Assembly: GCA_944332225.1 (NCBI GenBank)
Contig: CALVJO010000006.1
Coordinates: forward strand, 1 to 52,824
Length of the DNA stretch: 52,824 bases
Reading direction: 5' to 3'
From: an uncultured Bacilli bacterium
GTDB taxonomy: Bacteria > Bacillota_I > Bacilli_A > RFN20 > CAG-449
Shown here: positions 1,879-28,065 of the stretch, piece after piece
Numbering within the stretch: position 1 is the stretch's first letter
How the letters are laid out: the number at the start of each line of letters is the position of its first letter
Position numbers and translations under genes: made by a program
The notes under the pieces: model-generated
What the model was told of the DNA's origin: nothing
The model's input: only the letters and a program-made list of their open reading frames with translations
Database searches by the model: none

Positions 1879-3042
1879 TTAAATATTGCTTTCTAGATGC
1901 GTGGTAATCTTTCTTTTACCTTTAAAATAGATCTCTTCGATTATTCCTCCACCTAATAACCTTCCTTCAAAATCATATAAGACTCCAGCCTGTCCAGGGG
2001 TAACGCTTTTAAGGGGGATATTAGAGATTATTTCAATCGTGGAATCATCGATAAATCGATAGGAAATTGGATTATCTTTTTGTCTATAACGGAATTTAGC
2101 CATTCCATCGACAAAATCATAATTCTTCTCTTTTAAAAGATAATTGACGTTTTTAATAATAACCCGATCAGACATCAAATATTCATTTTCTTCGCCTTGA
2201 GATACATAAAGGATATTCTTCTTAACATCTTTAGCTACCACGAAATAAGATCCGGATTCATGATCTTTTATTCCTCCGATTCCTAAACCTCTTCTTTGAC
2301 CTAAGGTATAATAGAGGACTCCATTATGAGATCCTACTTTTTCTAAAGTATTGATATCGATGATATCACCTGGCTTAGCAGGAAGATAATTATTTAAAAA
2401 TTCTCTGAAGTTTCTTTCTCCGATGAAGCAAACTCCGGTTGAATCTTTCTTATCCGCGACTATGATATTTTGCTCATGGGCAATTTTTCTTACTTCTTCT
2501 TTAGTGATATCCCCTAAAGGAAATAAGGCTTTAGAGAATTGTTCTAATGATACTTGAGATAAAAAATATGTCTGATCTTTATTTAAATCTTTAGCTTTAT
2601 AGATTCTTACCTCTCCGTCAACTACCACCTTCTTTGCATAATGTCCCATCGCGATATAATCAAATCCCTTTGAGAACGCGAATTTTCTAAAGGTTTCAAA
2701 TTTAATGTATTTATTACAAAAAATATCAGGATTAGGAGTTCTTCCCTTTTTATATTCTTCTAAAAAGTAAGTAAAGACATCATCCCAATATTCTTTGACG
2801 AAATCGATTCGATAAAGAGGAATAGAAAGCTGCTCAGATACTTTTTTAGCATCTAAATAATCTACTTCCTGAGGGCAGATTGAATCATTAATCGTCGGAT
2901 TACCTTTAAGATCGTTATTAAGCATGCTATCCCAATTGCGCATGAAGCCTCCGCTGACATCGTAACCTTGACATTTTAAAATGTAAGCTGCGACGGAAGA
3001 ATCAACTCCTCCTGATAAACCAATCATCACTTTTTCTTTCAT
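1879..3042 (-). CDS. mnmA: tRNA-specific 2-thiouridylase MnmA
   Basis: MnmA uses ATP and relayed sulfur to make 2-thiouridine at wobble position 34 of tRNA Lys, Glu and Gln. The 387-residue protein has the PP-loop SGGVDSS at residues 10-16. The first catalytic cysteine is C109 in the NPDIFCN motif and the second is C205 in STGVCFIGER. A C-terminal beta-barrel carries the LGQRRGLG motif. Its ATG overlaps the dtd stop as ATGA. The grouping with dtd and rimO makes a small translation-quality cluster. Length and motifs are normal. Confidence 0.96.
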   Translation of the reverse strand: MKEKVMIGLSGGVDSSVAAYILKCQGYDVSGGFMRNWDSMLNNDLKGNPTINDSICPQEVDYLDAKKVSEQLSIPLYRIDFVKEYWDDVFTYFLEEYKKGRTPNPDIFCNKYIKFETFRKFAFSKGFDYIAMGHYAKKVVVDGEVRIYKAKDLNKDQTYFLSQVSLEQFSKALFPLGDITKEEVRKIAHEQNIIVADKKDSTGVCFIGERNFREFLNNYLPAKPGDIIDINTLEKVGSHNGVLYYTLGQRRGLGIGGIKDHESGSYFVVAKDVKKNILYVSQGEENEYLMSDRVIIKNVNYLLKEKNYDFVDGMAKFRYRQKDNPISYRFIDDSTIEIISNIPLKSVTPGQAGVLYDFEGRLLGGGIIEEIYFKGKRKITTHLESNI

Positions 3043-3485
3043 AAATCCTCACTATCTAAAATGATAGTCGTCGGACCATCATTTATTAAATGGACTTTCA
3101 TATCTTCTTGAAAAACTCCAGTTTGAAAACGATAACCTAAATTCTTAATATAGTCAACTGTCTTATTATATAGTTCTCTTCCTTCAACATTATTGATCGC
3201 CTTAACAAAAGATGGTCTTCTCCCCTTTTTACAATCCGCGTATAAAGTAAATTGAGAAACAATCATCACCTGATCTTGCTCTTTATCTAATGGAAGATTA
3301 ATTTTTCCGTTTTGATCAGGGAATAGTCTAAGCGACAAAGCTTTATCAATAACCTTTTTGATAATAGAAAAATCGTCTCCTTGAGTGAAACCGACAAAAA
3401 GAAGAAATCCTCTTTCGATGCTAGAGACGATTTTAGAATTAATTTCAATTTGACATTCTTTACAAACTAGCAGCAATAATCTCAT
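3039..3485 (-). CDS. dtd: D-aminoacyl-tRNA deacylase Dtd
   Basis: Dtd hydrolyses D-aminoacyl-tRNAs and recycles tRNA in the cytoplasm. From the ATG at 3485 it is 148 residues, the family length. The active-site motif SQFTLYAD has its catalytic Thr at residue 80, and the C-terminal NDGPTTIILD replaces the usual NDGPVT motif that holds the chirality-sensing Gly-Pro. I chose ATG at 3485 because upstream candidates in frame are TTG (3491) and GTG (3488), and Dtd proteins begin MR-V/L. The Shine-Dalgarno site is weak. The stop overlaps the mnmA start (ATGA). Confidence 0.92.
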   Translation of the reverse strand: MRLLLLVCKECQIEINSKIVSSIERGFLLFVGFTQGDDFSIIKKVIDKALSLRLFPDQNGKINLPLDKEQDQVMIVSQFTLYADCKKGRRPSFVKAINNVEGRELYNKTVDYIKNLGYRFQTGVFQEDMKVHLINDGPTTIILDSEDL

Positions 3486-3518
3486 CACCAAGATTATATA
3501 TTCTTTAAAGAAAATAAA

Positions 3519-4085
3519 CTATCTTCTTTTGAAAACCTTGTTAAGTCGATATAAAGGAGCAAGTAAAATAATTAAGACGATTAAATCTATAACGAAGGTA
3601 GGTCCGACATAGAGAATATTATAAGTTAAAGATCCTTCTAAAGGTGTCGCATAGTAAATCATTCCTGATACGACATGCCAAAAGTACCGTAAAACAAAGA
3701 CAATTATTAACGATATAACCATATAAATATAATTATCAACTGTAAGATTTTTATCAGTTGGTAAGACTAATTTTGAAAATAATCCAGCGATACAAATCGA
3801 ACCATAAGCTAGAAGATAATCAGCCCAATAACTTTGCCAAAATCCATCGATTGAACAGGCAACTAAGCCAAAGACTATGGATGCAAAAATAGATTTAATA
3901 AATCCATGACGGTAGGCGATAAAGAATAAAGGAATCATCGATAGACCAATCGATCCTCCGTTTTCCCCTATTCTAATTTGGCCAAAGGCATCTAATACAT
4001 TGGCTAAAGCGACAAAGATCGCAATCTCACAGATATCTTGAACTGTGATGAATTTTTTGATGCTAAATTTCTTTTTATTTTCCAT
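3519..4085 (-). CDS. thiT: Thiamine ECF transporter substrate-binding subunit ThiT
   Basis: This is the membrane S-component that binds thiamine and works with a shared energising module (EcfA/A'/T), which is not in this window. The 188 residues form about six membrane segments. The stretch GGSIGLSMIPLFFIAYRHG matches the ThiT signature, and the later YLLAYGSICIAGLF segment resembles the family helix 5. The start is preceded by a good GGAGGG ribosome site. The assignment is strongly reinforced by a TPP riboswitch in its leader (4131-4209), which implies repression by thiamine pyrophosphate. Only 33 bases separate its stop from dtd, so read-through to the tRNA genes is possible. Confidence 0.92.
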   Translation of the reverse strand: MENKKKFSIKKFITVQDICEIAIFVALANVLDAFGQIRIGENGGSIGLSMIPLFFIAYRHGFIKSIFASIVFGLVACSIDGFWQSYWADYLLAYGSICIAGLFSKLVLPTDKNLTVDNYIYMVISLIIVFVLRYFWHVVSGMIYYATPLEGSLTYNILYVGPTFVIDLIVLIILLAPLYRLNKVFKRR

Positions 4086-4130
4086 TTTCCCTCCAAAAAT
4101 TCATCCAGGTAACAACAGAAAATAAAAAAA

Positions 4131-4209
4131 TCCTTCCGCTAGAATTACCTAGATCAAGTACGGTCGAACCTAAGAAGGTTCCTCTCAGCCAGGTTCACCT
4201 AGCTCCCAA
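4131..4209 (-). ncRNA. TPP (thiamine pyrophosphate) riboswitch
   Basis: Read on the minus strand, this leader has the two conserved TPP aptamer halves. Near the 5' end is GGGAGCTAGG followed by GAACCTGGCTGAGAGG, with the invariant CTGAGA at 4183-4188. The 3' half is TTGATCTAGGTAATTCTAGC at about 4138-4158, the counterpart of the consensus CTGATCTGGATAATGCCAGC. A T-run follows the 3' strand, and the thiT ribosome site lies about 35 bases further on. I cannot tell whether control is by termination or by hiding the ribosome site. Confidence 0.93.
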
Positions 4210-4252
4210 AGAAATAATAATTCTAATGAAAGGAAAAATAAATAATAAAATG

Positions 4253-4762
4253 CTATTTAAAAATTAAAATTTTTCGTCCTAAATAATTAATTACTAATCC
4301 GATTAAGGTCATGATGATTCTAGCTATAAAATATGGAACCTTGAGTAAGTCGCTCATCAAGAATATTCCTAGATAAGAAAGAAGTAAGACAAAAACACCA
4401 ACTAAAGTAAAAATCACAAAATCTTTAACTGATTTTCCTTCTTTTTCGTCTTTTTTGTTCTTGTAAACAAAAATAATTGATAATACATAGTTTACTATTA
4501 ACCCGAGGGTAAAGCCAATCGTGGTCGCGATGGCTTTTTCTAGATGGAATTCACCAAATACCATATCAGGAAGAACCATCTCGCTTCCAATTGAGGCAGC
4601 CCAATCTAGTAAAGTTGCAATTCCTCCGACTAGCAAAAAACGAAATATTTCCCAAAGTAAATCCTTGTTTCTTTGATAAAAAGATAACTTTTTTTTGTTA
4701 TTTACATTGACGTCTTTAATTTCAATTTCTTCTTGTTCTTTAATATCATTCGTTTCGTTCAT
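4253..4762 (-). CDS. GtrA-like family membrane protein
   Basis: A 169-residue membrane protein with a charged N-terminal tail of about 30 residues and four hydrophobic helices. The first helix FLLVGGIATLLDWA and the later GLIVNYVLS and INYLGRKILIF motifs fit the GtrA/PF04138 family, small proteins linked to polyprenyl-phosphate sugar flipping or cell-surface polysaccharide work. It follows the nucleotidyltransferase gene by 55 bases on the same strand, at the end of the PqqD-type group. Membership in that group is possible but unproven, since no glycosyltransferase is adjacent. The Shine-Dalgarno signal is weak. Confidence 0.82.
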   Translation of the reverse strand: MNETNDIKEQEEIEIKDVNVNNKKKLSFYQRNKDLLWEIFRFLLVGGIATLLDWAASIGSEMVLPDMVFGEFHLEKAIATTIGFTLGLIVNYVLSIIFVYKNKKDEKEGKSVKDFVIFTLVGVFVLLLSYLGIFLMSDLLKVPYFIARIIMTLIGLVINYLGRKILIFK

Positions 4763-4817
4763 AGGGTAAATACTATCACTTTTTTTAAATAATTCACTAA
4801 ATAATTTAGATTTTAAA

Positions 4818-5924
4818 TCATTTATTTAAACCAAATTTTTTTAAAAACGAATTATCTTTTTTACTTTCTAAAACTGTTTCTAGCTTTTTTCTTTTATTGA
4901 AAAGCAAACTAAAGAAATGATGAATATAGGCAAAAGGCAAAAGAATAATTGTCTTAGAATAAGGGTATTTTTCTTTCATTAATGAAAATGGTAAAAAGAT
5001 TTTCTTTAATAAAAAGACAAATTTATTATCTTTAGAATTCTTAAATTCATTTTTAGTTGGTGAATTATTCTTTCCGTTACCATGAATTCCTGAATTTAAT
5101 AAATATTCAATAAACTGATCAATATCAGGATTCTTTTTATAGATTATATTGATTTTCTTAGCTAAAGCTTGGCTATTAAAATCAAAGATTTCCTCTAAAC
5201 AAGACAATATGGTATTTAAAAATTCTTGTAAATCATCTTCCTGAATTAAATAAGCTAATAAATCATAATCAATTTTACCCTTGAGCAAAAGAAGATAAAT
5301 ATCTCCTAAAGGACGAATTCCCGCGCCGCGAAGGAGATGCTTATAATAATGTAGTAAAATGTAGTATAGATGATAAGTTTGAATCATGTGTTTTTGAACT
5401 GACGATGATTCATCGATTATATTAAATGGATTCTTAAAGGAAGAATTACCAACATCATCCTTACTTAAAAGAGTATGATGAAGCTCAACAATTAATCCGT
5501 TTTTCTTAAATTCCGCGTGATGCTTAGCAATATTAAAGATAGTAAATCCGTTATTAGTTAATATTTCTTTAGCCTTTTTATAATCTTTTGAAGTTACAAT
5601 AAGATCGATATCACCTAATGTTCTTAAGCTTGGTTTAGGATATAAAGAATATATCTCCATTCCTTTAATAAAATAAAAAGGAATATTAGATTCAGTAAAT
5701 AGACGAATAATCTCATCTTTTAAAGCTAAAAATTTATCGAAAATGATCGAATATTGAATATCAAATTTTTTAAATTTGTCTTCTAAATAGACATTATATA
5801 AATATGGTAATAAAGATTGTTCTTTAATAATTTCAATAATCTCTTTTAGCTTAGAATCACCTATATAAGGTAGATTTTTTCCTGTGATTCCTGCTTTAAA
5901 TAATCTTAAAACTTCTCTATTCAT
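4818..5924 (-). CDS. Nucleotidyltransferase-fold protein (PF14907-like)
   Basis: A protein of about 368 residues with a Pol-beta-type nucleotidyltransferase core. The motif FIKGMEIYSLYP is followed by R-LGDIDLIV (the acidic metal-binding DxD), then ELHHTLL. This matches the uncharacterised nucleotidyltransferase family often found beside lasso-peptide and PqqD/HPr-kinase gene sets. I prefer the ATG at 5924 over 5930, because AGGA then sits 7 bases away. The gene overlaps the end of the ABC exporter gene, so the products are coupled. The last 100 residues are basic and hydrophobic and may touch the membrane. The acceptor substrate is unknown. Confidence 0.8.
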   Translation of the reverse strand: MNREVLRLFKAGITGKNLPYIGDSKLKEIIEIIKEQSLLPYLYNVYLEDKFKKFDIQYSIIFDKFLALKDEIIRLFTESNIPFYFIKGMEIYSLYPKPSLRTLGDIDLIVTSKDYKKAKEILTNNGFTIFNIAKHHAEFKKNGLIVELHHTLLSKDDVGNSSFKNPFNIIDESSSVQKHMIQTYHLYYILLHYYKHLLRGAGIRPLGDIYLLLLKGKIDYDLLAYLIQEDDLQEFLNTILSCLEEIFDFNSQALAKKINIIYKKNPDIDQFIEYLLNSGIHGNGKNNSPTKNEFKNSKDNKFVFLLKKIFLPFSLMKEKYPYSKTIILLPFAYIHHFFSLLFNKRKKLETVLESKKDNSFLKKFGLNK

Positions 5925-7494
5925 AATCATTTCCTAATTCTAATACTTTCGCCCCATCAATATCTATCGCGCGATGAGTGATTATTATCTTAGTTAAAGG
6001 TAATTTAATAACATTATTAACGATCTTCTTTTCCGTTTCTTGATCTAAGGATGAAGTAAATTCATCTAAAAGAAGAACTTTACGATTTTCTAATAAAGCG
6101 ATGGCTAATAATATTCTTTGAATCTGACCTAGTGATAGACCATCTCCTCCTTCTTTGATAATCGTGTCTAGTTTATCTTTCTTTTGATATATCTCATCAT
6201 AGATGCAGGCTAATTTTAAGGCTTCATCAATTTTCTTTTCATCAGTTTCGCCAGACAAAAGATAGATATTTTCACGAATTGATAAAGAAAATAAAATGTT
6301 ATCCTGCACTACATAAGAAAAGAAATTTTTAATTTTAGATGAATCGTATGAATCATTTTTATCAATAACTTTAATTGATCCTGATAAAGGTTTATTAAAG
6401 CCTAAAATCAATTTAAATAAGGTGGTTTTCCCTCTTCCAGAAGGACCTTTAATTAAGATGGTATCATTTTTATTAATAACATAATTAAAGGAAGAGAAAA
6501 TATTCTTGCTATCATAAGAAAAGGTTAAATCTTTAATCTCTATATAGTCAAAATCATCTAAGGTCACATCTTTATGATCATCTAATAAAGAAAATAGATT
6601 ATCGATTCTCGCTTTAGAGACTTTATAAGCATTATATCTAGAATGGAGGCTTCCTAAAGCTTGAATCGGTCCTTCAAAGTAGGATACAAGCATGATGATC
6701 GTCGTTAATAAAGCATACTCAATCTCTCCAAAATAAATTAATAAACAGCCAACGATCAAAGCTAAACCTGAGATAAAATTTAGTATTAAAGAAAAACCTC
6801 CATTACCGATTAAAGTGAGAAGATTTCTTTTATTCTTAAGCTGATAATTTTCTTTTAAGGCTTCTTTAATATTAGATGTGAAACGTTTTTGAGAATCAGT
6901 TGAGTTAATTAAAGCGATGTTTTCAATTGACTCTTCGACGAATGAATTTATTTTCCCATCACTTTCTAAAGCTCTTTTTTGATATCTTTTAATAATCTTA
7001 GAGTAAAATCTCATCAGAATTAATGAGATGAGAGCAATTATCAATAAAACGATTAATAATTGATACGATATAACTGAAAGAGCCACGATTGCTAGGATGA
7101 ATCTAGATAGATATAATGATAAAGAAGGAATGATTTCACTTAGACCAACATTAATAATATTAATGTCGCTTATAAAGATATTACCGATTTCACCTGAATG
7201 ATATTTTTTAATCTCTCTAACATCTTTAACGATTAATTTTGAATATAGTTTTTCTTTTAAATTTACTTCTATATTCAACGATAAACGATTTTTGATAAAT
7301 AAAGAAACCATGCCTAGAATCACTAATAAAACTAAGCATGAAGCAAATAAAACTATATCGATAGTTAAATCATTTTTAGATACTGAATCTTGCACTATTT
7401 GTCGCATCAAAAAAGCTTGTCCGATTAAAAGACAAGATCTGATGATATTAATTAATGATATAATTACAAGTGTTAGTTTTTGCTTTTTTTCCAT
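5917..7494 (-). CDS. ABC exporter, fused membrane and ATPase domains
   Basis: A 525-residue half-transporter with about six N-terminal membrane segments and a C-terminal ATPase. Walker A is GPSGRGKTT at about residue 350. The signature is LSLGQ rather than LSGGQ, followed by Walker B KVLLLDEFTSSLD with the catalytic Glu, then the switch His in IITHR. It probably works as a homodimer, since no partner half is present. It begins one base after the stop of the S26 peptidase gene and overlaps the nucleotidyltransferase gene. No N-terminal C39 peptidase domain is present. Context suggests peptide or lipid-linked substrate export, but the substrate is not visible. Confidence 0.85.
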   Translation of the reverse strand: MEKKQKLTLVIISLINIIRSCLLIGQAFLMRQIVQDSVSKNDLTIDIVLFASCLVLLVILGMVSLFIKNRLSLNIEVNLKEKLYSKLIVKDVREIKKYHSGEIGNIFISDINIINVGLSEIIPSLSLYLSRFILAIVALSVISYQLLIVLLIIALISLILMRFYSKIIKRYQKRALESDGKINSFVEESIENIALINSTDSQKRFTSNIKEALKENYQLKNKRNLLTLIGNGGFSLILNFISGLALIVGCLLIYFGEIEYALLTTIIMLVSYFEGPIQALGSLHSRYNAYKVSKARIDNLFSLLDDHKDVTLDDFDYIEIKDLTFSYDSKNIFSSFNYVINKNDTILIKGPSGRGKTTLFKLILGFNKPLSGSIKVIDKNDSYDSSKIKNFFSYVVQDNILFSLSIRENIYLLSGETDEKKIDEALKLACIYDEIYQKKDKLDTIIKEGGDGLSLGQIQRILLAIALLENRKVLLLDEFTSSLDQETEKKIVNNVIKLPLTKIIITHRAIDIDGAKVLELGNDYE

Positions 7495-7495
7495 C

Positions 7496-7918
7496 TTATC
7501 CCTGCAAAAATAAGTATATATAATGAACTATCATAAAGGAAAATAAGAATTTATAAAATCGATATTTAAATGAAGTTAATTCAATAATCTTTTCTTGTTT
7601 ATTTCTAATTTTGATGATTTTTCTAACTTTTGCCTCAATCTGTTCTTTTTTGATATTCTTTTCTATTTTGATTTGATGGTCGCCTAATAGATAATAACTA
7701 TCTTTTTTTACTTTAAAAATTCGATGAAGAATATATTCTCCGTTCTCGCGTCTATAAAAGATGATATCTCCTTTTTTTAAATTTAAAGGATGAGTCAATT
7801 CAACTTTATCCCCATCGATTAATAAAGGGTTCATGCTAGTTCCCTTAATTGGCATGATAAAAGTTAAATTATTTTCAAGAGCTTCTTTTAAGAAAAAAGC
7901 GGCTTCGTTAACTTTCAT
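7496..7918 (-). CDS. S24/S26-family signal-peptidase-like protein
   Basis: A 140-residue serine peptidase of the S26 type with one C-terminal membrane helix. The nucleophile is S28 in KGTSMNP. The general base position is a His (H65 in YILHRIF) rather than the Lys of standard bacterial LepB, as in SipW/ER-type signal peptidases. LLGDH at about 77-81 gives the conserved Asp. The small size and lack of an N-terminal membrane anchor differ from housekeeping signal peptidase. It lies 2 bases after the PqqD stop and 1 base before the ABC exporter gene. Cleavage of a dedicated peptide substrate during export is a reasonable inference. Confidence 0.83.
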   Translation of the reverse strand: MKVNEAAFFLKEALENNLTFIMPIKGTSMNPLLIDGDKVELTHPLNLKKGDIIFYRRENGEYILHRIFKVKKDSYYLLGDHQIKIEKNIKKEQIEAKVRKIIKIRNKQEKIIELTSFKYRFYKFLFSFMIVHYIYLFLQG

Positions 7919-7920
7919 AA

Positions 7921-8187
7921 TTATTCAATTAAGATTTTTTCTTTTTTTAATTTCTTTAAAAATTCTTGCAAATCTTTTGAGGCCGTTTCTTGATCTATTT
8001 GATAGTTATCAAGTATTGAAGATAATATCTCTTCTTCACTTTTATTTTCTTTCAATAGATTATAAATAAAATAGCCAAGTGAATTTAAGGCGATAAACTT
8101 AGAAAAATCGACGCTTTTTTCATCTTGATAGATTAAGACACGCTCGCCATCATATTCTTTTAAGACAAAGTTTTGATTAAGTTTCAT
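7921..8187 (-). CDS. PqqD-like peptide-binding protein (RRE domain)
   Basis: An 88-residue protein with the PqqD/RRE fold pattern: beta strands at the N-terminus (NFVLKEYDGERVLIY), an ALNSLGYFIYNLL helix typical of PqqD, and a C-terminal helical pair ending in a K/E-rich segment. PqqD-like domains bind leader peptides of ribosomally made, modified peptides. I placed the start at the ATG at 8187. GGAGGA lies a proper distance upstream, and this ATG forms an ATGA overlap with the kinase stop. A longer in-frame reading to 8244 would begin inside the kinase gene and is unlikely. No leader-peptide gene is adjacent. Confidence 0.85.
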   Translation of the reverse strand: MKLNQNFVLKEYDGERVLIYQDEKSVDFSKFIALNSLGYFIYNLLKENKSEEEILSSILDNYQIDQETASKDLQEFLKKLKKEKILIE

Positions 8188-9014
8188 AAATTTTCCTCCA
8201 AAGTTGTTCTTAAAGCAAGATAGGCTTCTTTTGATACATTGCATTCTAATAAAAAGAAGTTCACCTTTTCAAGAATCGAATCGGTAATTAAATTATATGA
8301 CGCGCGTTCTAACATAAAAGATGTATTTAAAATATGAGGAGTCAATAATTTAAATCCTTCAATCTTTTTAATCTTTCTTGCTTGAGAAACTAAGTTTCTC
8401 TTTAAGATGATGATTCCTTTTAACTCTTTTACTAGATTATTATCCTTAAGACTCTTACCTGAAAAAGGATTAGGAAAAACTTTTAAGATTCCTTCATCTA
8501 ATAAGACGATATTTTTATCATCATTAATTAAAAGGCTATTATTATATTTTTCCCATAAACTCGCATGGGTTGATTTTCCTGTTCCTGATGAGGCGACAAG
8601 ACAATAAGCATAATCATTAAAGACAAAGCAAGATGAATGAATCACAATTCCCTTATGATTCTTTAAAATAAAATAAAAGCAAACATATTCTAAAAAGATA
8701 TATTCGCTTTTAAAAGAGGCATATTTCTCTAAAATTTGAATCGAGGCTCCATTTGAAGAATAGATAACATTTCCAATTAGAGTCTTATTTTCATCGTAAA
8801 CTTCTTGAATAAAACTAGTTTCATCTATCTGATAGATGCTATAAAACTTAGATTTAATTTTGGCTTCTAAAGTCGATTTTTCTAAAGAAGCAACATATTT
8901 TATATTAATAACAAAACCATCATCAAAATCAGTATGATATTTTTGAAGTTGAGAATTAATTAAAGGATTTGAAGATATAATTTCAAAATTAGTTAAGCCA
9001 AAATTAACCTTCAT
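8184..9014 (-). CDS. HPr-kinase-like P-loop protein of a PqqD-type cluster
   Basis: A 276-residue protein with an N-terminal alpha/beta region and a C-terminal HPr-kinase/PEPCK-like fold. The P-loop ASSGTGKST spans residues 141-149. It is followed by HASLW and by LLINDDKN, whose acidic pair is the expected metal or base site. Relatives are often annotated as serine kinases or ATP-type PEP carboxykinases next to PqqD and S26 genes; related lasso-peptide kinases phosphorylate the precursor tail. The start was set to ATG 9014, which has GAGG nine bases upstream; the longer 9023 start is TTG. It overlaps pdp by 11 bases. Confidence 0.83.
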   Translation of the reverse strand: MKVNFGLTNFEIISSNPLINSQLQKYHTDFDDGFVINIKYVASLEKSTLEAKIKSKFYSIYQIDETSFIQEVYDENKTLIGNVIYSSNGASIQILEKYASFKSEYIFLEYVCFYFILKNHKGIVIHSSCFVFNDYAYCLVASSGTGKSTHASLWEKYNNSLLINDDKNIVLLDEGILKVFPNPFSGKSLKDNNLVKELKGIIILKRNLVSQARKIKKIEGFKLLTPHILNTSFMLERASYNLITDSILEKVNFFLLECNVSKEAYLALRTTLEENL

Positions 9015-10320
9015 TAGAAACAACCTCGTAGATTAACGGTTTTGTTTTAATTGGTTTATCTTCAATTCTATAAGCATCAAGAGCAAGCGCGCATGCATCT
9101 TCATGCTCATCAACATTAGTAAAGATAGTTAATAAAGTATCACCTTTTTTACAATAATCATTAATTTTCTTATTTAAAATAATCCCTGCATCAAAATCAA
9201 TTGTATCTTCTTTAGTCTTTCTTCCCGCGCCGGAAAGGAGGCTAGCTTCACCGATTTTTAAAGCATCGATCGTCACAACATATCCATCTCTAGGAGCTTT
9301 GATTTCGATTATATATTTAGTTTTATCGATACCTTCTTTCATTAGTTTTTCTAAAAATGATACATCTCCGTGCTGATATGAAACCATCTCGAAAAGTTTT
9401 TTTAATCCATAGCCATTATTGATTCTCTCTTGAATTATTTTTTCGCCTTCTTCAAAAGAAGTTACTTCCTTAGCTTGATAAAGGATGATGCCTCCAAGTT
9501 TTATAATTAGCTCATGAAAATCCTTACTTCCCCTACCTTGAAGAGTTTCTAATGATTCTATTAACTCTAAGCGATTACCAATATGAGTTCCTAAAGGTTG
9601 ATCCATATCAGTGATCACCGCGATGGTATTTTTATTAAAATGAGTTCCAATTTTAACCATTAATGAAGCTAATTTTCTCGCGTCAGGTAAAGTCTTCATA
9701 AAGGCTCCTGAGCCAAATTTAACATCAAGTAAAATGGTATCAGCATTAGAAGCTAATTTTTTTGACATGATAGAAGAGGCGATAAGAGAAAGATTATCGA
9801 CAGTCGCGGTTACATCTCTTAAGGCATATAGTTTCTTATCCGCGGGAACTAAATTACCCGTTTGGGCGATGATGGCAATAGATATATCATTTACTTGCTT
9901 TTCAAATTCTTCTAAAGAAAGATTCACTTTAAAATTAGGAATTGATTCTAATTTATCAATCGTTCCTCCAGTATGGCCTAAACCTCTTCCTGACATCTTA
10001 GCTACCTTGACTTTATCTGAGCAAACTAAAGGTAATAAAGCTAAAGAAGTCTTATCTCCTACTCCTCCAGTTGAATGCTTATCAACCTTGATTCCTGGAA
10101 TATTTTTTAAAGAGACGATATCTCCTGAATTAAGCATCGCTTCAGTTAGATCAAAAGTTTCTCTTTCATTCATTCCCTTCAGACAGATAGCCATCAATAA
10201 AGAGGAAGCTTGATAATCTTTAACAATATCTTTACAGTAACCATCGATGAAAAAATTTATCTCTTCTTTAGATAGTTCTAATCCTTGTTTCTTTTTTTCA
10301 ATTATTTCAGTTATAACCAT
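9004..10320 (-). CDS. pdp: Pyrimidine-nucleoside phosphorylase
   Basis: This enzyme splits uridine, thymidine and deoxyuridine with phosphate to give the base and (deoxy)ribose-1-phosphate. The 438-residue protein has the family signature SGRGLGHTGGTIDKLESIP and the phosphate-binding KHSTGGVGDKTS loop. The C-terminal domain carries the GRKTKED motif. Length and motifs fit Firmicutes Pdp better than enteric DeoA. GAGG precedes the ATG. It lies 7 bases after rex and overlaps the kinase gene of the PqqD-type group, so nucleoside salvage and that group share a transcript. deoC is on the same strand at 20642-21301. Confidence 0.93.
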   Translation of the reverse strand: MVITEIIEKKKQGLELSKEEINFFIDGYCKDIVKDYQASSLLMAICLKGMNERETFDLTEAMLNSGDIVSLKNIPGIKVDKHSTGGVGDKTSLALLPLVCSDKVKVAKMSGRGLGHTGGTIDKLESIPNFKVNLSLEEFEKQVNDISIAIIAQTGNLVPADKKLYALRDVTATVDNLSLIASSIMSKKLASNADTILLDVKFGSGAFMKTLPDARKLASLMVKIGTHFNKNTIAVITDMDQPLGTHIGNRLELIESLETLQGRGSKDFHELIIKLGGIILYQAKEVTSFEEGEKIIQERINNGYGLKKLFEMVSYQHGDVSFLEKLMKEGIDKTKYIIEIKAPRDGYVVTIDALKIGEASLLSGAGRKTKEDTIDFDAGIILNKKINDYCKKGDTLLTIFTNVDEHEDACALALDAYRIEDKPIKTKPLIYEVVSNEG

Positions 10321-21473: not shown

Positions 21474-23507
21474 TTAAGCTTGAGAAGGACTTCTATAAAT
21501 GAACATTGCTAGCTTGATATTCGCTATAGCTTCTTCTCCAACATATTGGATAGAAATCATTTCAGAAGAGTTATTCGCATCATAATTGACAGTATAAGGA
21601 ATTTCTACAATTTGATTTGGCTCGATGGTTATAGCTTCAGAAGATCCATTTTGAGAATATTTTCCGCTGGATCTAGAAGCATGTATTTTGATGGTGATTG
21701 CTTCTTCACCTAAGTTTTGAACGGTAGCAACATCATTATATTGTCCTTTAACAATATTATGATTGAGTTGCATCATGAATACTGAATCAGGTGCAATAGT
21801 CTCAGTTGTAGTATCATTAGTTCCATCATAACCAACTAAATCAAAGAGAGTTGCTTCCTCTTCTTCAATGGTAGTTTGCGTAGCCATACATACTGTAGAG
21901 TAGTTAGTTTGGTATGTACCATTAATATTGGTGTCCCCGCGAGATACCATTTGGCTCTTATCCCCTCTCCACTTATGAGGATTGTTTCCAGAATCTGAAG
22001 CGTAAGGTGGTAAGCCTATCTTTCCGTTAGTTGAAGAATATACAACTTCAGTTCTAGCAAAGCTAATTGTTACATCAGAATCAGGCATTGTTAAGTTATC
22101 TAATGCCGATATTTCATAACTGATTCCATCAGCTTCAATAGTATAAATAATTTGTTGTCCTGGTCTAATTTCACCTGAATAAGTGATGTCGGCTAAATTA
22201 AGAACATCATTCCAAACTAAATCTTTAGTGTTGGTGCCATCAGAGAAAGTTAAGTTTTCTCCTAAGGTAACTGTGTGAGTGTGATCAGCCTTACTTTCAA
22301 AATATGGGGATAAGGTGAGATCTTTATTTGGCATGTTGAAACTTGAAGGATAAACTTGATTTTCATCAGCAGTATCTTGCCATCCCATGAATAATGAATC
22401 AGCTGGTACAGTTACATTATCATTAGAAAGGGTTACCGCGGAACCAGGTTTATAATCCTTAGTTTTACCGATTGAAGCATCTTCTTCAATAATGTCGCCT
22501 TCAGTTAAGGTAAGAGTCTTATCTTCGATAGTTTCATAGTCTTCAACATATCCATAGATACCAACTTTAAGCTCTTCAACTGGATTAATTAATTCCATAG
22601 TTACTAATGTATTACCGTTAGTCCAACCAGAGAAAGAAGTAAAGACAGTTTCAACTGAGTTAGGTTCAATATGGATTGGAGCTGATGCATTCTTCTCATT
22701 TAAGACATTTCCTGAACTATTGGTTTGATATAGTTTTAAATCAACTGCTTCATCACCAAAGTTTTCAATGGTGTAAGTAATCGCATATGATTCAGTATCA
22801 ATTACTTGATAACGAGATAAGAACATCGTATGCCATCCACCTGGAACTTTTAAATCCTTATTTAAGGTTTCAAATGTTCCTCCATCAGCATGGAAATAAA
22901 CTCCAGCTTCATCATTAACAGTAACTGTAGTTAAAGTGTCTGAGTAAAGATAAGCATTTTGAGAAGTTTGAGGGTCGCTAGTACGTTGCTCCCAAGCAAA
23001 GTCAGAAATCTTACCATAGGTTGGCTTTTCGCCCTCAGCGACTTTCTGAGCGGCATAAGCTTCGCTTGGAACATCAAATATAGGTTGAATTGCTGCATCT
23101 TTTCTGATGGTAACAAAGTTAGCCCCAGCGTAGAAGTCACCATATAAGTTTGAATCATTAGGATTATCGGCTAACCAACCGGTTATAATCTTACCTTCAG
23201 GAATATCAATTAAGATATCTTCGCCGATAACAAGTTCAGTGTTAGAAAGAATAGTTTTTGAGGTAGTGCCATCAGCAAAGGTAGCCCCACCTTTTAAGGT
23301 AAGAACCTTTTCAACAGGTTCACGGTCATGACGATTAGGATCATCTTCAAAATCGTTATCTGGACGAGTGGTAATTCCAAAAGGTGGACGATCTTCTCCT
23401 CCTGGAACGCTAGATGAAGATGAAGTCGTGTTACAAGCAGTGAAGCTCATTAGACCGACTAAACCTAAAAGTAAGGAACAAGATGTTAATTTAGCAATTT
23501 TTTTCAT
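21474..23507 (-). CDS. Large surface lipoprotein with Gly-rich beta repeats
   Basis: A 677-residue secreted lipoprotein. The signal peptide ends in the lipobox SFTAC with the lipid-anchored Cys at 25, followed by TTSSSSS. The mature part has three InlB-like or bacterial-repeat modules built on a pattern such as LKGGATFADGTTSK, LTEGDIIEEDASIG and LGENLTFSDGTNTK, each ending in a GW or GWQD turn. Between and after these are beta-rich domains. No catalytic motif is recognised. It is the last gene of an operon with the GH3 enzyme, two bases after it, so glycan binding or adhesion is a fair guess. Confidence 0.75.
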   Translation of the reverse strand: MKKIAKLTSCSLLLGLVGLMSFTACNTTSSSSSVPGGEDRPPFGITTRPDNDFEDDPNRHDREPVEKVLTLKGGATFADGTTSKTILSNTELVIGEDILIDIPEGKIITGWLADNPNDSNLYGDFYAGANFVTIRKDAAIQPIFDVPSEAYAAQKVAEGEKPTYGKISDFAWEQRTSDPQTSQNAYLYSDTLTTVTVNDEAGVYFHADGGTFETLNKDLKVPGGWHTMFLSRYQVIDTESYAITYTIENFGDEAVDLKLYQTNSSGNVLNEKNASAPIHIEPNSVETVFTSFSGWTNGNTLVTMELINPVEELKVGIYGYVEDYETIEDKTLTLTEGDIIEEDASIGKTKDYKPGSAVTLSNDNVTVPADSLFMGWQDTADENQVYPSSFNMPNKDLTLSPYFESKADHTHTVTLGENLTFSDGTNTKDLVWNDVLNLADITYSGEIRPGQQIIYTIEADGISYEISALDNLTMPDSDVTISFARTEVVYSSTNGKIGLPPYASDSGNNPHKWRGDKSQMVSRGDTNINGTYQTNYSTVCMATQTTIEEEEATLFDLVGYDGTNDTTTETIAPDSVFMMQLNHNIVKGQYNDVATVQNLGEEAITIKIHASRSSGKYSQNGSSEAITIEPNQIVEIPYTVNYDANNSSEMISIQYVGEEAIANIKLAMFIYRSPSQA

Positions 23508-23509
23508 AA

Positions 23510-26500
23510 TTAATTTGCCTCCTCGTCATCATGATGGACAAATATCTTTTTGAGATTATCTTTATTGATTAAGAAGATGCAGACTAGAACTTCCGCAGCG
23601 CTTAATCCAAGTAAGACGCCGAAAGATATTTGAATTGCGTTAACTGCTTTAATCCAATCAGGAGTGATTTTATAGATTTTATCAGTCGCAGCGATACCGT
23701 TCATCGCATTAGAGTGAACGACAGTATATAAGATTCTATGCGCGCTTTCTCTCATCGCCCAAGCAAATTCACCATATTCACCAGTTCCTCCTTCGCTAGT
23801 AGGAGCTGCGAAATCAAAGGCACCATCGCTGATTCTTCCATCAGGTAAATCATTTCCGGTGAAGACGCTGACTGCAAAGTTTCCGCCCATTGCTGATGTA
23901 GTATCAGTAACAGCTGCTCCAGTCATACCAAATTCATCACGTAAGACAGTATTGAAGAATCCTTGAGTTCCAGAGCTCATCATACCGATTGAGTTAAGGC
24001 TTCCCATAACTCCTTGAGCCCCGTATTCAGAGATGGCGATTTCGTAAGGTTTTAAATAGATTTCTCTAATGGTTTGTTCATTAGCCCAGGTGAATCCGCC
24101 GCATCTATAAGTTTCTTGATCATTTAAGACGCAGTGCTTTAAGTAGACATAGGCTCCTCTAGTTGCCATACCTCTAACGGTTTCACCAGCGATGACACCC
24201 ATCAAGAGAGGATCTTCAGAATAATATTCGAAGTTTCTTCCGCCGTAAGCTGAACGATGGATATTCATTCCCATTCCATATAATCCAGCCATACCTGCCC
24301 AGAGCATATCTTCACCCCATTGGCAGCCATAGTAGTAAGCTAATTCTTTGTTAAATGTTGAAGCGACGATACCATTACATGGATAAACAACTGGAGATTC
24401 ATTCTTTAATGAATCGTTCTTTCTAGTTGCTAATCCTTGCTCGTTAGCCCCGCCGATGCTGTAGCCTTGGTTTGGTCCATTACCACCATTATGGTCAATG
24501 ACTGCAGGTTTAGAAACAGAACCCATAGCTACGTTCTTTCTTTCACCATCGGATAATAAGCTAACTAAATCATCCCAAGTCATTTGATCTAATAAGTCAT
24601 CCCACATTGGATCATTATAATCGATCCATTCATCGTTAGTTGGATCTTCATCCTCGTCAGCTTTCGCTCTTAACATAGCAAGTGTGTATGAAGTGCTAGT
24701 CGAACCAAATGTTGGATATCCTCTATCAGAAGTTTTAGCTTCTTCAGGGATTAAGGTTGGTTGAGCTCCGCAGCTAGTTACTCCTCCCCAGCTCTTTTCT
24801 AAGTCATCTTTCATCTGTTGAGTTGGGATAACTACTTCGCGATCATAAGTTCTTGTGTTATCAGCATTTAAACCATATTTAACTGTTCCAGTCCAATCAG
24901 AACGAGAAATATAATCAACGTGATTGGCTTCATTAGCGTTATCATAGATATTTAAATCTGCGTTATCAAATTTATTAGTAATTTGATTTCCGGTAGCTAA
25001 TGATGTGCTATAAGTAGTTTTATCTTCTTCTTTATCGAAGGAATAAACCATTTCAGGATCACCAGCTTCAGTCATACCATCTTGAGTAGTATAACCTTTA
25101 TCAGCTAAGATATTGTTAATTGCCTCATGGGAATCTTTAGCAACAGTAAAGTAGTAAGTTCCTTCATCGACAACATAAGTTTTCGCGTCATATGAATCAT
25201 AAGAAGCTAAATCTTTTCCGCTGACTTCCATAGTGATGGTCGCTGTTTGTCCTGATTCTAGTAATGGAGTTTTTCCAAAGTCTACTAATTCAACAGAAGC
25301 TTTTTCAATTCCACCTTCAATATATGGCTTTTGTAAATATAATTGAACGGCTTCTTTTGCTGTAACATCACCGGTATTGGTAACATCTACCGTAATCGTG
25401 TATTTATCATATAATTTATGATCGATTTCTTCAGTTCCAGGAACGACATTAAAGTTAGAATATTCAAATGTTGAATAAGATAAGCCATAGCCAAAAGGAT
25501 AAGCAACCGCTTGATTATAATCAAAGTTACCTGCGTTACCTTTCTTCATGACAAAGTCTTCATAGCGGGTCTCTGTATAACGATATCCCATATAGATACC
25601 TTCTTGATAGACGATGTTTTCAATGCTATCGGTATCAGTGTCGGTTCCAGCATTAACCGCGTTTTGGAATGTGCTAGCAGAGGTTTGTCTCCATTGATTT
25701 ACTAGAGGGCTCTCTGCTCCGTTAACTAAAGTTCCATAGTTAGCTAAAACTGGATTAAGGTAATGATATTTCCAGAAAGTATCAGATAATTTTCCTGAAG
25801 GAGAAATTGCCCCACTTAAGACTTCACCGATTGCGTAAGCACCTTGAGACCCCCAAGATCCTGCCCAGATTAATCCATCGATACCAATTTCATCGACGAA
25901 ATCGCATTGAACAGGGTTAGCTGAGTTCATGATGACGATGACGCTATCGAAGACTCCATTATCTCTCTGCGCGCATAAATTAGTTAAAATGTCTCTTTCA
26001 GTATCTGATAATTTAAGATAGTTTCCATCTTTATAATCGACTGTATAATTGCTACCGAAGACATTAAAGTTATTATCATCTTCATAAGCCGTTAGATCCA
26101 TACCTTCGCCGCCGGTACGAGAAAGAACGAACACCGCAGCATTAGCTCTTTGATTTTTAGCTTCTGGTAAAACATCCCAAGGTGCATCGCCAATAGTTGC
26201 AAATTTACCAACGCCGGATGCTCCAGCTGGCCATTGTCTACCGTATGTTCCAAAATTTTCTTCATACCAGGTGTATAAATCGCGGTTTACAGTTAAACCA
26301 GCGTCTTCAATACCATCGATTAAAGAAACGTTTTCCGTTCCTCCGCCTCCTGAGCCAGTACCACTTAAGATAGGTTGAACGGATGAAGTTGAGAATAAGC
26401 TAACGCTAGCTCCTTCACCTAAAGGTAAAACTGGATTGCCTTCTTTATTACTATTTTTTAAAAGGGTCAAGCCTTCATCGACTACTGTTTCCGCGTAAAC

Positions 26501-26746
26501 TCTACCATTATTCTTAACATCAGATAGATTATCAAATGCTGACTTATAATATTCTAAGTCACGATATCTTGCATCTGGATCTGGTTCAAGTATCTGAGTA
26601 GGTTGATTGAGGAAGGCAGAGATTGTTCCTGCATTTTCCATAGCAATCGAACTAGCAGTAGAAATGATAGCAAATAAAACTGTGGTTGCAGTTAAGCAGA
26701 TTTTACCTGTCAACAATAAACCTTTTAGATGTTTTGATTTTGACAT
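23510..26746 (-). CDS. Membrane-anchored GH3 glycoside hydrolase with permuted domain order
   Basis: A 1078-residue family-3 glycosidase whose domains run in reverse order. First comes an N-terminal membrane segment (about 10-35), then the GH3 C-terminal alpha/beta domain (from EGLTLLKN to YPFGYGLSYS). A fibronectin-III-like domain (VTNTGDVTAKEAVQLYLQKP) follows, then the GH3 TIM barrel (AVIDHNGGNG, NIHRSAYGGRNFEYYSEDP, YLKHCVLND). The barrel holds the likely nucleophile Asp in AAVTDTT. A second membrane helix closes the C-terminus. Reverse-order GH3 enzymes are known from rumen bacteria. The usual SDW nucleophile motif is VTDT here. Substrate is unknown. GGAGGAAATG supports the start. Confidence 0.87.
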   Translation of the reverse strand: MSKSKHLKGLLLTGKICLTATTVLFAIISTASSIAMENAGTISAFLNQPTQILEPDPDARYRDLEYYKSAFDNLSDVKNNGRVYAETVVDEGLTLLKNSNKEGNPVLPLGEGASVSLFSTSSVQPILSGTGSGGGGTENVSLIDGIEDAGLTVNRDLYTWYEENFGTYGRQWPAGASGVGKFATIGDAPWDVLPEAKNQRANAAVFVLSRTGGEGMDLTAYEDDNNFNVFGSNYTVDYKDGNYLKLSDTERDILTNLCAQRDNGVFDSVIVIMNSANPVQCDFVDEIGIDGLIWAGSWGSQGAYAIGEVLSGAISPSGKLSDTFWKYHYLNPVLANYGTLVNGAESPLVNQWRQTSASTFQNAVNAGTDTDTDSIENIVYQEGIYMGYRYTETRYEDFVMKKGNAGNFDYNQAVAYPFGYGLSYSTFEYSNFNVVPGTEEIDHKLYDKYTITVDVTNTGDVTAKEAVQLYLQKPYIEGGIEKASVELVDFGKTPLLESGQTATITMEVSGKDLASYDSYDAKTYVVDEGTYYFTVAKDSHEAINNILADKGYTTQDGMTEAGDPEMVYSFDKEEDKTTYSTSLATGNQITNKFDNADLNIYDNANEANHVDYISRSDWTGTVKYGLNADNTRTYDREVVIPTQQMKDDLEKSWGGVTSCGAQPTLIPEEAKTSDRGYPTFGSTSTSYTLAMLRAKADEDEDPTNDEWIDYNDPMWDDLLDQMTWDDLVSLLSDGERKNVAMGSVSKPAVIDHNGGNGPNQGYSIGGANEQGLATRKNDSLKNESPVVYPCNGIVASTFNKELAYYYGCQWGEDMLWAGMAGLYGMGMNIHRSAYGGRNFEYYSEDPLLMGVIAGETVRGMATRGAYVYLKHCVLNDQETYRCGGFTWANEQTIREIYLKPYEIAISEYGAQGVMGSLNSIGMMSSGTQGFFNTVLRDEFGMTGAAVTDTTSAMGGNFAVSVFTGNDLPDGRISDGAFDFAAPTSEGGTGEYGEFAWAMRESAHRILYTVVHSNAMNGIAATDKIYKITPDWIKAVNAIQISFGVLLGLSAAEVLVCIFLINKDNLKKIFVHHDDEEAN

Positions 26747-27216
26747 ACTTCATTTCCTCCTTCATTTTCAGTTTGTTTAATTTGTTTAGATTGTCTTAAA
26801 AAGACAGAAGCGATGCTAACGCCTAAAATAAGTAAGAATAAGATGATGCTGCATAGATAGCCATAGTAAGTTGTAACTATAGCTTGCATTGTGATTCCAC
26901 CAAAGAATTGGGTTGTAAAATACCAATAACCATCTTTAATGAATAGCATAAAAGCAGCAAGTTCAAGGACGCCTAAAGCAACAGGTGCCAATGACTCTGT
27001 CCATTTTGTTAAGGATAATCCTACTCCTAGGATAATAGCAAAAACGGAACAGATGACGGCAGGTTGGCTAAAGTATTGAGCGTAATCCATTGTAGAAAAA
27101 GCTACAGAATAGATGATTACTTCAATGACAGACAATAAAACTCCACCCATTGTGAAGTAAAAGCCTATCCCGCGTCGTTTAAAGAAATTTTTAATTCCTA
27201 AGATAACGTTTTGCAT
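26725..27216 (-). CDS. Four-helix membrane protein of the GH3 operon
   Basis: A 163-residue integral membrane protein with four hydrophobic helices and a short basic N-terminus and charged C-terminus. I do not recognise a named family. AAGGAG precedes the start. It is the first gene of the operon and overlaps the GH3 gene by 22 bases, so the two proteins are translationally coupled and may form a membrane unit, but no transport motif is visible. Confidence 0.7.
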   Translation of the reverse strand: MQNVILGIKNFFKRRGIGFYFTMGGVLLSVIEVIIYSVAFSTMDYAQYFSQPAVICSVFAIILGVGLSLTKWTESLAPVALGVLELAAFMLFIKDGYWYFTTQFFGGITMQAIVTTYYGYLCSIILFLLILGVSIASVFLRQSKQIKQTENEGGNEVCQNQNI

Positions 27217-27498: not shown

Positions 27499-28065
27499 CT
27501 AAATTGAGGTAAAATCTTGCTTTTGATAAGATTCATTCTTAGTTAGTTTTTTTATCTCCGCGACGATTCTAATAAGCTCTTTACATCTTCTAAATAATAA
27601 TTCAGATCTTATTTTTACTGTGAACGGAACATCTTTATAAGATGGTTTCTCCGCTAAAGAGAATTGATTATAGCGTTCAAACGGTAAGGTTGGATCGTTT
27701 GGATCGAGAGCAAGATGCAATCTGACAATCTTTCCAGAAATTGAAAGCTTAGCCACGATTTCGCCATCTTTAGTGAACTCTTCATTCTTGAATGTCATAT
27801 TAGCTTCTAATCCAAATGACAATAATAGATTCTTTAAATCAGAATAATAGAGTCGGCTGCGAGGAGAAATATCATTAAACTTTTCAGTAAATGGAACCCT
27901 AACTATCGATGAATCATCATTATTGATTGGGGTTTCACTTTCTTCGTCATTATCATCAGGATCATCATCGAAATCATCTTCGATTGTAGCTTGATCCTCT
28001 AAAGATTCTGCTTCATCGTTATCATTAACAAACGGTGAGTAGACAACATCTTCTACATCAAAAGT
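27499..28065 (-). CDS. Frame-shifted second copy of the unknown domain (C-terminal part of the 28053-30476 protein)
   Basis: An open frame of 188 codons in the -1 frame relative to the gene at 28053-30476, entered at the A9 run. It starts KTFDVEDVVYSPF, continues through a highly acidic linker (DDFDDDPDDNDEESE) and ends in a domain (VAKLSISGKIVRLHLALD, FSLAEKPSYKDVPFTVKIRS) that closely matches the upstream protein (VAKMTISGKTLRLHLALD, FSLGEKHAFKDVPFTVKVKS). There is no ATG, GTG or TTG in frame before a TTG at 27822, so it is unlikely to start on its own at full length. A gene caller would give only 107 residues (27499-27822). The copy lacks the last 130 residues of the upstream domain. Confidence 0.7.
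   Translation of the reverse strand, partial: TFDVEDVVYSPFVNDNDEAESLEDQATIEDDFDDDPDDNDEESETPINNDDSSIVRVPFTEKFNDISPRSRLYYSDLKNLLLSFGLEANMTFKNEEFTKDGEIVAKLSISGKIVRLHLALDPNDPTLPFERYNQFSLAEKPSYKDVPFTVKIRSELLFRRCKELIRIVAEIKKLTKNESYQKQDFTSI

Follow-up and report, generated by a model that had tools for sequence, protein, structure and literature searches.

A probable lasso-related, cyclase-free peptide maturation and export gene set of an uncultured Bacilli bacterium and its probable substrates encoded in trans

Results

Gene content of the locus

The window, i.e. the whole 52,824-nucleotide stretch of DNA analysed here (contig CALVJO010000006.1, uncultured Bacilli bacterium), carries six open reading frames on the minus strand between positions 4253 and 9014. 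They had been reported in a first-pass annotation as five overlapping or nearly overlapping genes plus a GtrA-like gene, and profile searches and the predicted kinase fold agreed with this description. Five of them form a tight run (4818-9014, minus strand), here called the kit. The kinase ATG and the 3' end of pdp overlap. Lpp names below refer to the linear polyphosphorylated peptide (LPP) family of RiPPs, described for the lppA-K-B-S-D-N genes of Paenibacillus alginolyticus (Popov et al., May 2026; PMC13381572).

8184..9014, minus strand: putative HprK-fold peptide kinase (LppK/PadeK/BsfK-like), by fold and invariant residues
7921..8187, minus strand: PqqD-family RRE (LppB/lasso-B1-like), 88 aa; PF05402, E=2.4e-14
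7496..7918, minus strand: putative S26/SipW-type Ser/His/Asp leader peptidase (LppS-like), 140 aa; TIGR02228, 1.6e-9
5917..7494, minus strand: fused ABC exporter (LppD/MsbA-like), 525 aa; ABC_membrane PF00664, 1.3e-34, and ABC_tran PF00005, 4.7e-22
4818..5930, minus strand: PF14907 nucleotidyltransferase, NTP_transf_5 (LppN/PsmN-like), 370 aa; PF14907, 7.8e-31
4253..4762, minus strand: GtrA-like membrane protein, judged to lie outside the system; GtrA profile, 1.5e-20

Pfam and NCBIfam profiles supported every kit protein except the kinase, which had nearly no sequence-family match (TIGR04352, 17.9 bits). Its AlphaFold model (mean pLDDT 96) matched exclusively PEPCK and HPr kinase/phosphorylase in Foldseek at E<1e-3. 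In 42 homologues H125, K146 and S147 of the P-loop, D164 and D165 were invariant (numbering without Met1). Their spacing is nearly that of H148, K169, S170, D186 and D187, which are essential in the lasso kinase BsfK (PMC10368454). The first-pass assignment of the 88-residue protein to PqqD/RRE held, with a PF05402 score of 53.8 bits, above the curated cut-off of 23.4. Its profile matched the solved RREs TbiB1 (5v1u, 2.9e-10) and LppB (9x8z, 5.4e-7).

The S26 protein matched Peptidase_S24-like PF00717 (4.9e-7), the signal peptidase family TIGR02228 at a score below its curated cut-off, and SEC11C (1.1e-6) and SEC11A (7.1e-6). S28, H65 and D80 were invariant in 30 homologues. The protein has a C-terminal hydrophobic helix and lacks an N-terminal signal; it likely acts on a cytoplasmic leader. 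In the nucleotidyltransferase K89, R103, D107, D109 and H151, including the DxD pair, were invariant in 16 homologues. Its best fold neighbours were the antibiotic nucleotidyltransferases ANT(2'') and LnuA at moderate E-values (1.4e-3 to 2.5e-3); a sequence search of the PDB returned nothing, i.e. the match is one of fold. The GtrA-like gene, which the first-pass annotation had counted as part of the cluster, was left out of the system because it adjoins the kit in this genus only and because its homologues occur in kit-less genomes, there away from the kit, pdp and thiT genes.

Conservation of the kit in relatives

The five genes are a recurring and co-evolving unit, beyond chance. A kinase search of 98 genomes of the order gave 18 matches. 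The sister species and other genera (G001, G002, G003, G006, G009, G017, G058 and G090) have all five genes in identical order. Variants were a fusion of kinase and S26 peptidase (G069), a kit without an adjoining ABC gene (G013) and a set of kinase, PqqD and S26 genes with a nucleotidyltransferase of the same family elsewhere (G005). Where G005 has its kit, G008 and G011 retain just a kinase-like reading frame that lacks the P-loop. Across the window and 12 other full kits, the pairwise distances of the five proteins correlated with r=0.58-0.90 (p=0.001 each); these p-values and those below are optimistic because relatives of one clade are not independent. The genomes are mostly MAGs. The earlier suggestion of a long-resident system stands for the genus, three species of which have the kit at a common site; in the family, by contrast, the kit is patchy and decayed in two relatives.

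To the relatives we added 80 named kit loci from Clostridia, Bacilli and Bacteroidota. Among their neighbour-gene families no further constant gene was found besides polysaccharide genes. In 13 of the 80 loci a chain-length/BY-kinase family was encoded at most seven genes away from the kinase; it was also present near the kits of L024-L026 and L239, and LPP clusters likewise occur near or in capsule loci (PMC13381572). This raises the question whether the mature peptides, instead of acting free, become attached to exopolysaccharide or capsule or take part in its synthesis. We regard this as unlikely, albeit worth keeping in mind: the window kit is flanked by pdp and gtrA and has no polysaccharide genes beside it, and many kits are far from such genes.

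Candidate precursor peptides

No precursor gene was found in or near the window cluster. Short reading frames beside the 80 named kits share a leader which is reminiscent of lasso leaders. A first regular expression for this leader was unspecific on its own (48 matches versus 31 in reversed sequence), and profile searches took over. Profile A5 was built from eleven kit-adjacent peptides, none of them taken from the 21 genomes in which it was tested. It matched all seven kit genomes among the 21; the window genome contributed two peptides and the six others several each. Outside the kit genomes clear matches were seen in a single genome, which is 65% complete (p=6.9e-5). A scan of 1.31 of the 1.33 Mb of the window genome yielded exactly two precursor peptides, MKKEYIKPNFEIEEITLDDVITSSTLGEEQAGDTVIDNPWAGLWG on contig C15 and MKKNYIKPELTEEIIVLDDVIASSTGTIGDILPGDQESPFDDVFNK on contig C37. 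In both cases the gene for a large secreted protein lies immediately upstream. The first-pass annotation had predicted a peptide tailoring and export system with its substrate encoded elsewhere and had proposed a genome-wide look for short peptides with a common leader; the two YxKP peptides on other contigs, and their co-occurrence with the kit, bear this out.

The wider profile A6 matched 14 of the 98 genomes of the order at E<1e-3. The PqqD profile was strong in 14 as well; 13 genomes had both and each was alone in one, a table which is partly circular as A6 includes sequences from some of these genomes. In the family 2-11 precursors were present per genome. Independent tests of co-occurrence are the A5 search of 21 genomes and a survey of 296 genomes of the class. 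In the latter the S26 peptidase was present in 45 genomes, precursors in 29 and both in 25; outside the order the co-occurrence had a p of about 1e-11 or lower. A precursor was located within 6 kb of the S26 gene in 14 of 19 genomes checked outside the order, and in 13 loci of these class relatives the arrangement was read directly. Locus L239 has the genes for the peptide and for all five kit proteins within 7 kb. The first-pass annotation had asked whether the same five genes recur in related genomes and which small reading frames track with them: the genes do recur in order, they co-evolve, and short YxKP peptides track with them.

Both kit and peptides are patchy, and the accessory load differs between MAG-rich lineages. 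Peptides and kit could, therefore, be unrelated accessory genes that travel together. This is very improbable considering that their presence and absence matched within several genera, that they are closely linked in the 14 of 19 genomes, and that the leader motif is a known ligand of this RRE fold. The kit genome G039 and 20 of the 45 S26 genomes of the class had no precursor match. Such genomes point either to additional substrates or to a precursor model that misses some true precursors. For the precursors, Pfam and NCBIfam gave nothing above noise, and no solved chain matched.

Precursor anatomy and secreted partners

The leader is rigid, with the consensus YxKPx[LIV]E..E[DE][VI][IL][AT]xS, and 50 precursors aligned across it without gaps. 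Tyr was present in 49 of the 50, Pro at +3 in 48 and Ser at Tyr+19 in 41. A hydrophobic residue at +5 and acidic residues at +13/+14 are followed by [VI][IL][AT]x ahead of the Ser. The cores are variable; 45/50 are acidic, and towards their end 47/50 have an aromatic residue.

In the window's family the precursor mostly starts 12-24 nt after the end of the reading frame for a signal-peptide protein of 480-890 residues. Each precursor has its own Shine-Dalgarno ribosome-binding site. At a few loci the order of peptide and partner is reversed, and there the genes overlap slightly. A gene for a small Ser-rich lipoprotein often comes next after the peptide. Several partners carry Listeria-Bacteroides repeats, and the domain make-up varies among partners. 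Their shared C-terminal domain was present in precursor-bearing genomes only, bar one weak match in G014.

The tight bicistrons and the near confinement of this domain to precursor-bearing genomes of the family would also fit a kit that tailors the large secreted partners, the short peptides being co-transcribed helpers or regulators. We consider this quite improbable. The partners lack a YxxP leader, their signal peptides are ordinary ones of the Sec type, they differ in domain make-up, and it is the peptide, not the partner, which carries the motif of lasso/LPP-type RREs and the conserved Ser. With the peptide as the substrate, gene position suggests that it and its secreted partner probably act jointly outside the cell. 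Tentatively, the peptide may be a dedicated extracellular ligand, subunit or tag, and one maturase set may serve many scattered pairs of peptide and secreted protein. If true, kit and peptides would amount to a modular peptide-plus-adhesin system, present in gut Bacilli, Clostridia and Bacteroidota alike, and not to a free natural product.

Discussion

A probable maturation and export set acting in trans

The kit is, very probably, the maturation and export set of an LPP-type RiPP, i.e. lasso-related and cyclase-free, that acts in trans. This reading builds on genes, folds, catalytic residues, precursor family, co-occurrence and linkage as observed; all the biochemical steps below and the precise position of the cut are inferred from these. 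By homology to TbiB1 and LppB the RRE (7921-8187) probably binds the YxKP leader, and it would grip the YxKPx[LIV] part in peptides encoded elsewhere. The HprK-fold kinase would then phosphorylate the conserved Ser at Tyr+19 once or several times, and the nucleotidyltransferase may decorate the phosphate with a nucleotide or sugar, as was proposed for PsmN. The S26 peptidase, guided by the RRE, would cut the leader just upstream of or at [AT]xS, and the product released by the ABC exporter would be linear, acidic and about 20-25 residues long.

In P. alginolyticus multiple phosphates on Ser3 and an RRE-dependent cut by the SipW-like peptidase were established by experiment; the cut lies three residues before the phosphorylated Ser (PMC13381572). 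Because of this position the conserved Ser is more likely the phosphorylation site, and by analogy the mature peptide would begin with [AT]xS. Less likely, the cut is after the Ser, with the conserved residue as P1 of a signal-peptidase AxS site. The cut site is uncertain because the leader shares 2-3 of 11 LPP residues and because its Ser is at Tyr+19 and not at Tyr+18. In the LPP system a deletion of lppN was without effect (PMC13381572).

Going by its sequence, the kit should phosphorylate, trim and export small peptides in a gut bacterium. RRE-Finder collected roughly 8,000 lasso-type RREs, of which about half were without lasso enzymes and were set aside as possible false positives (PMC7470986). 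Our data suggest that part of these cyclase-less RREs are LPP-type kits with distant peptides, missed by cluster-based mining. The fixed spacing of the leader motif makes such peptides findable in any genome. The pairing of peptide and secreted protein gives a handle on the purpose of the peptides, a question which the LPP authors leave open (PMC13381572).

Comparison with known systems

Kinase and PqqD are paired as in the HPr-rel-A system (TIGR04352 HprK_rel_A/TIGR04353 PqqD_rel_X), yet with 17.9 bits against a curated cut-off of 200 and 14.7 against 35 both proteins are far below membership. With type I signal peptidases of the SipW/SEC11 kind the S26 protein shares the catalytic fold and the Ser/His/Asp residues. 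In contrast to these it has no N-terminal signal or anchor helix and is encoded in an RRE operon.

The likeness to lasso peptide systems of the paeninodin, Bsf and pseudomycoidin types is closer. It comprises an HprK-like kinase with a His-Lys-Asp-Asp set, a discrete RRE (B1), which is assigned by homology, an ABC exporter, a nucleotidyltransferase (N) and a leader motif of the YxxPxL type. Hence a lasso cluster whose cyclase and cysteine leader peptidase are located elsewhere or were lost has to be considered. It has very little to commend it. As the first-pass annotation had noted for the locus, an asparagine synthetase is missing: the macrolactam cyclase profile Asn_synthase (PF00733) had no match in the 97% complete window genome, whereas the same search was positive in 11 of 14 controls. 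The transglutaminase-like B2 (Transglut_core3, PF13471) had no match in the window genome either, and an S26 peptidase takes its place in the kit. Finally, the cores of the 50 precursors are without the fixed pattern of Gly/Ala/Ser1 to Asp/Glu8.

The cluster, called orphan in the first-pass annotation, is of a known kind: the set of five enzymes and their order equal the KBSDN core of LPP, and so this is not a new class. The window S26 protein resembles LppS, a SipW-like Ser/His/Asp leader peptidase, and keeps the residue set whose mutation inactivated LppS (PMC13381572). Both systems have a YxxP leader with a conserved Ser at nearly equal distance, both are without a cyclase and both are often near polysaccharide genes. 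By profile, the RRE is no closer to LppB (5.4e-7) than to the lasso RRE TbiB1 (2.9e-10).

The differences concern the substrates and the host range. One to three LPP precursors are encoded in the cluster, whereas those of the window kit are scattered in trans and, in its group, bicistronic with secreted proteins. The LPP leader reads YxxPxVLxHQxIxFETxxS, that of the window group YxKPx[LIV]E..E[DE][VI][IL][AT]xS; the latter keeps Y and P, in all 2-3 of 11 LPP consensus residues, and has its Ser at Tyr+19 instead of Tyr+18. The window-group cores are short and acidic. LPPs were described as restricted to Bacillota (PMC13381572), whereas the window group is present in uncultured Bacilli, Clostridia and Prevotella (L087, L115). 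New in comparison with the published LPPs are thus the leader sequence, the precursors in trans, the coupling to secreted proteins and the reach into Prevotella. By analogy, the window group appears to keep the LPP logic and would work like an LPP system.

Variants and remnants of the kit

In genome G069 the kinase and the S26 peptidase of the kit are encoded as one ORF of 383 residues. This fusion independently points to joint action of the two enzymes.

L034 (G069:C29), 9132-10283, minus strand: fused kinase and S26 peptidase

Three kits are a variant carrying another tailoring enzyme: beside the gene for the kinase or for PqqD they encode a radical SAM protein some 340-370 residues long.

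L082, 7976-9094: radical SAM protein
L229, 5826-6845: radical SAM protein
L235, 3617-4639: radical SAM protein

In genomes G008 and G011 the kit is decaying. Full-length kinase-like ORFs devoid of a P-loop stand alone there, at the site where G005 retains kinase, PqqD and S26 peptidase; precursor peptides are likewise absent from both genomes. A lone kinase of the window-kit family is encoded next to mnmG and an O-methyltransferase-like gene and adjoins neither RRE nor peptidase genes.

L033, 9489-10322: kinase-like ORF
L035, 5044-5859: kinase-like ORF
L027/L049 (G023:C95), 3517-4362: lone kinase

Genes beside the precursor peptides and others in the window

Two islands of the window's genome, G000, resemble each other: both carry genes for a large lipoprotein, for a small membrane protein and for a GH3 beta-glucosidase (34% identity across 1111 columns). 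Of the two, the C15 copy alone comes with a precursor peptide.

Window, 21474-27216: island
G000:C15 (L130), 2378-8783: island beside precursor 1

Elsewhere in the window, a domain within a membrane protein recurs in the neighbouring small ORF (...SGKxxRLHLALD...FTVKxxS...).

Window, 27499-27822: 107-residue ORF
Window, 28053-30476: 807-residue membrane protein

The secreted partner proteins encoded directly next to precursors can end in a domain of roughly 170 residues (examples: L187, 8163-8690, minus strand; L197; L211; L214). This C-terminal domain has no Pfam match and is nearly restricted to proteins encoded beside precursor peptides. A frequent third gene adjoining the precursor encodes a small Ser-rich lipoprotein of about 73-111 residues (L199, L200, L204, L206, L211, L213, L214). 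Its C-termini (WGEIV, ELPWLRYE, EFPPIH) resemble the acidic, aromatic tail in which the adjoining core peptide ends, as if the lipoprotein bore a tethered copy of that tail.
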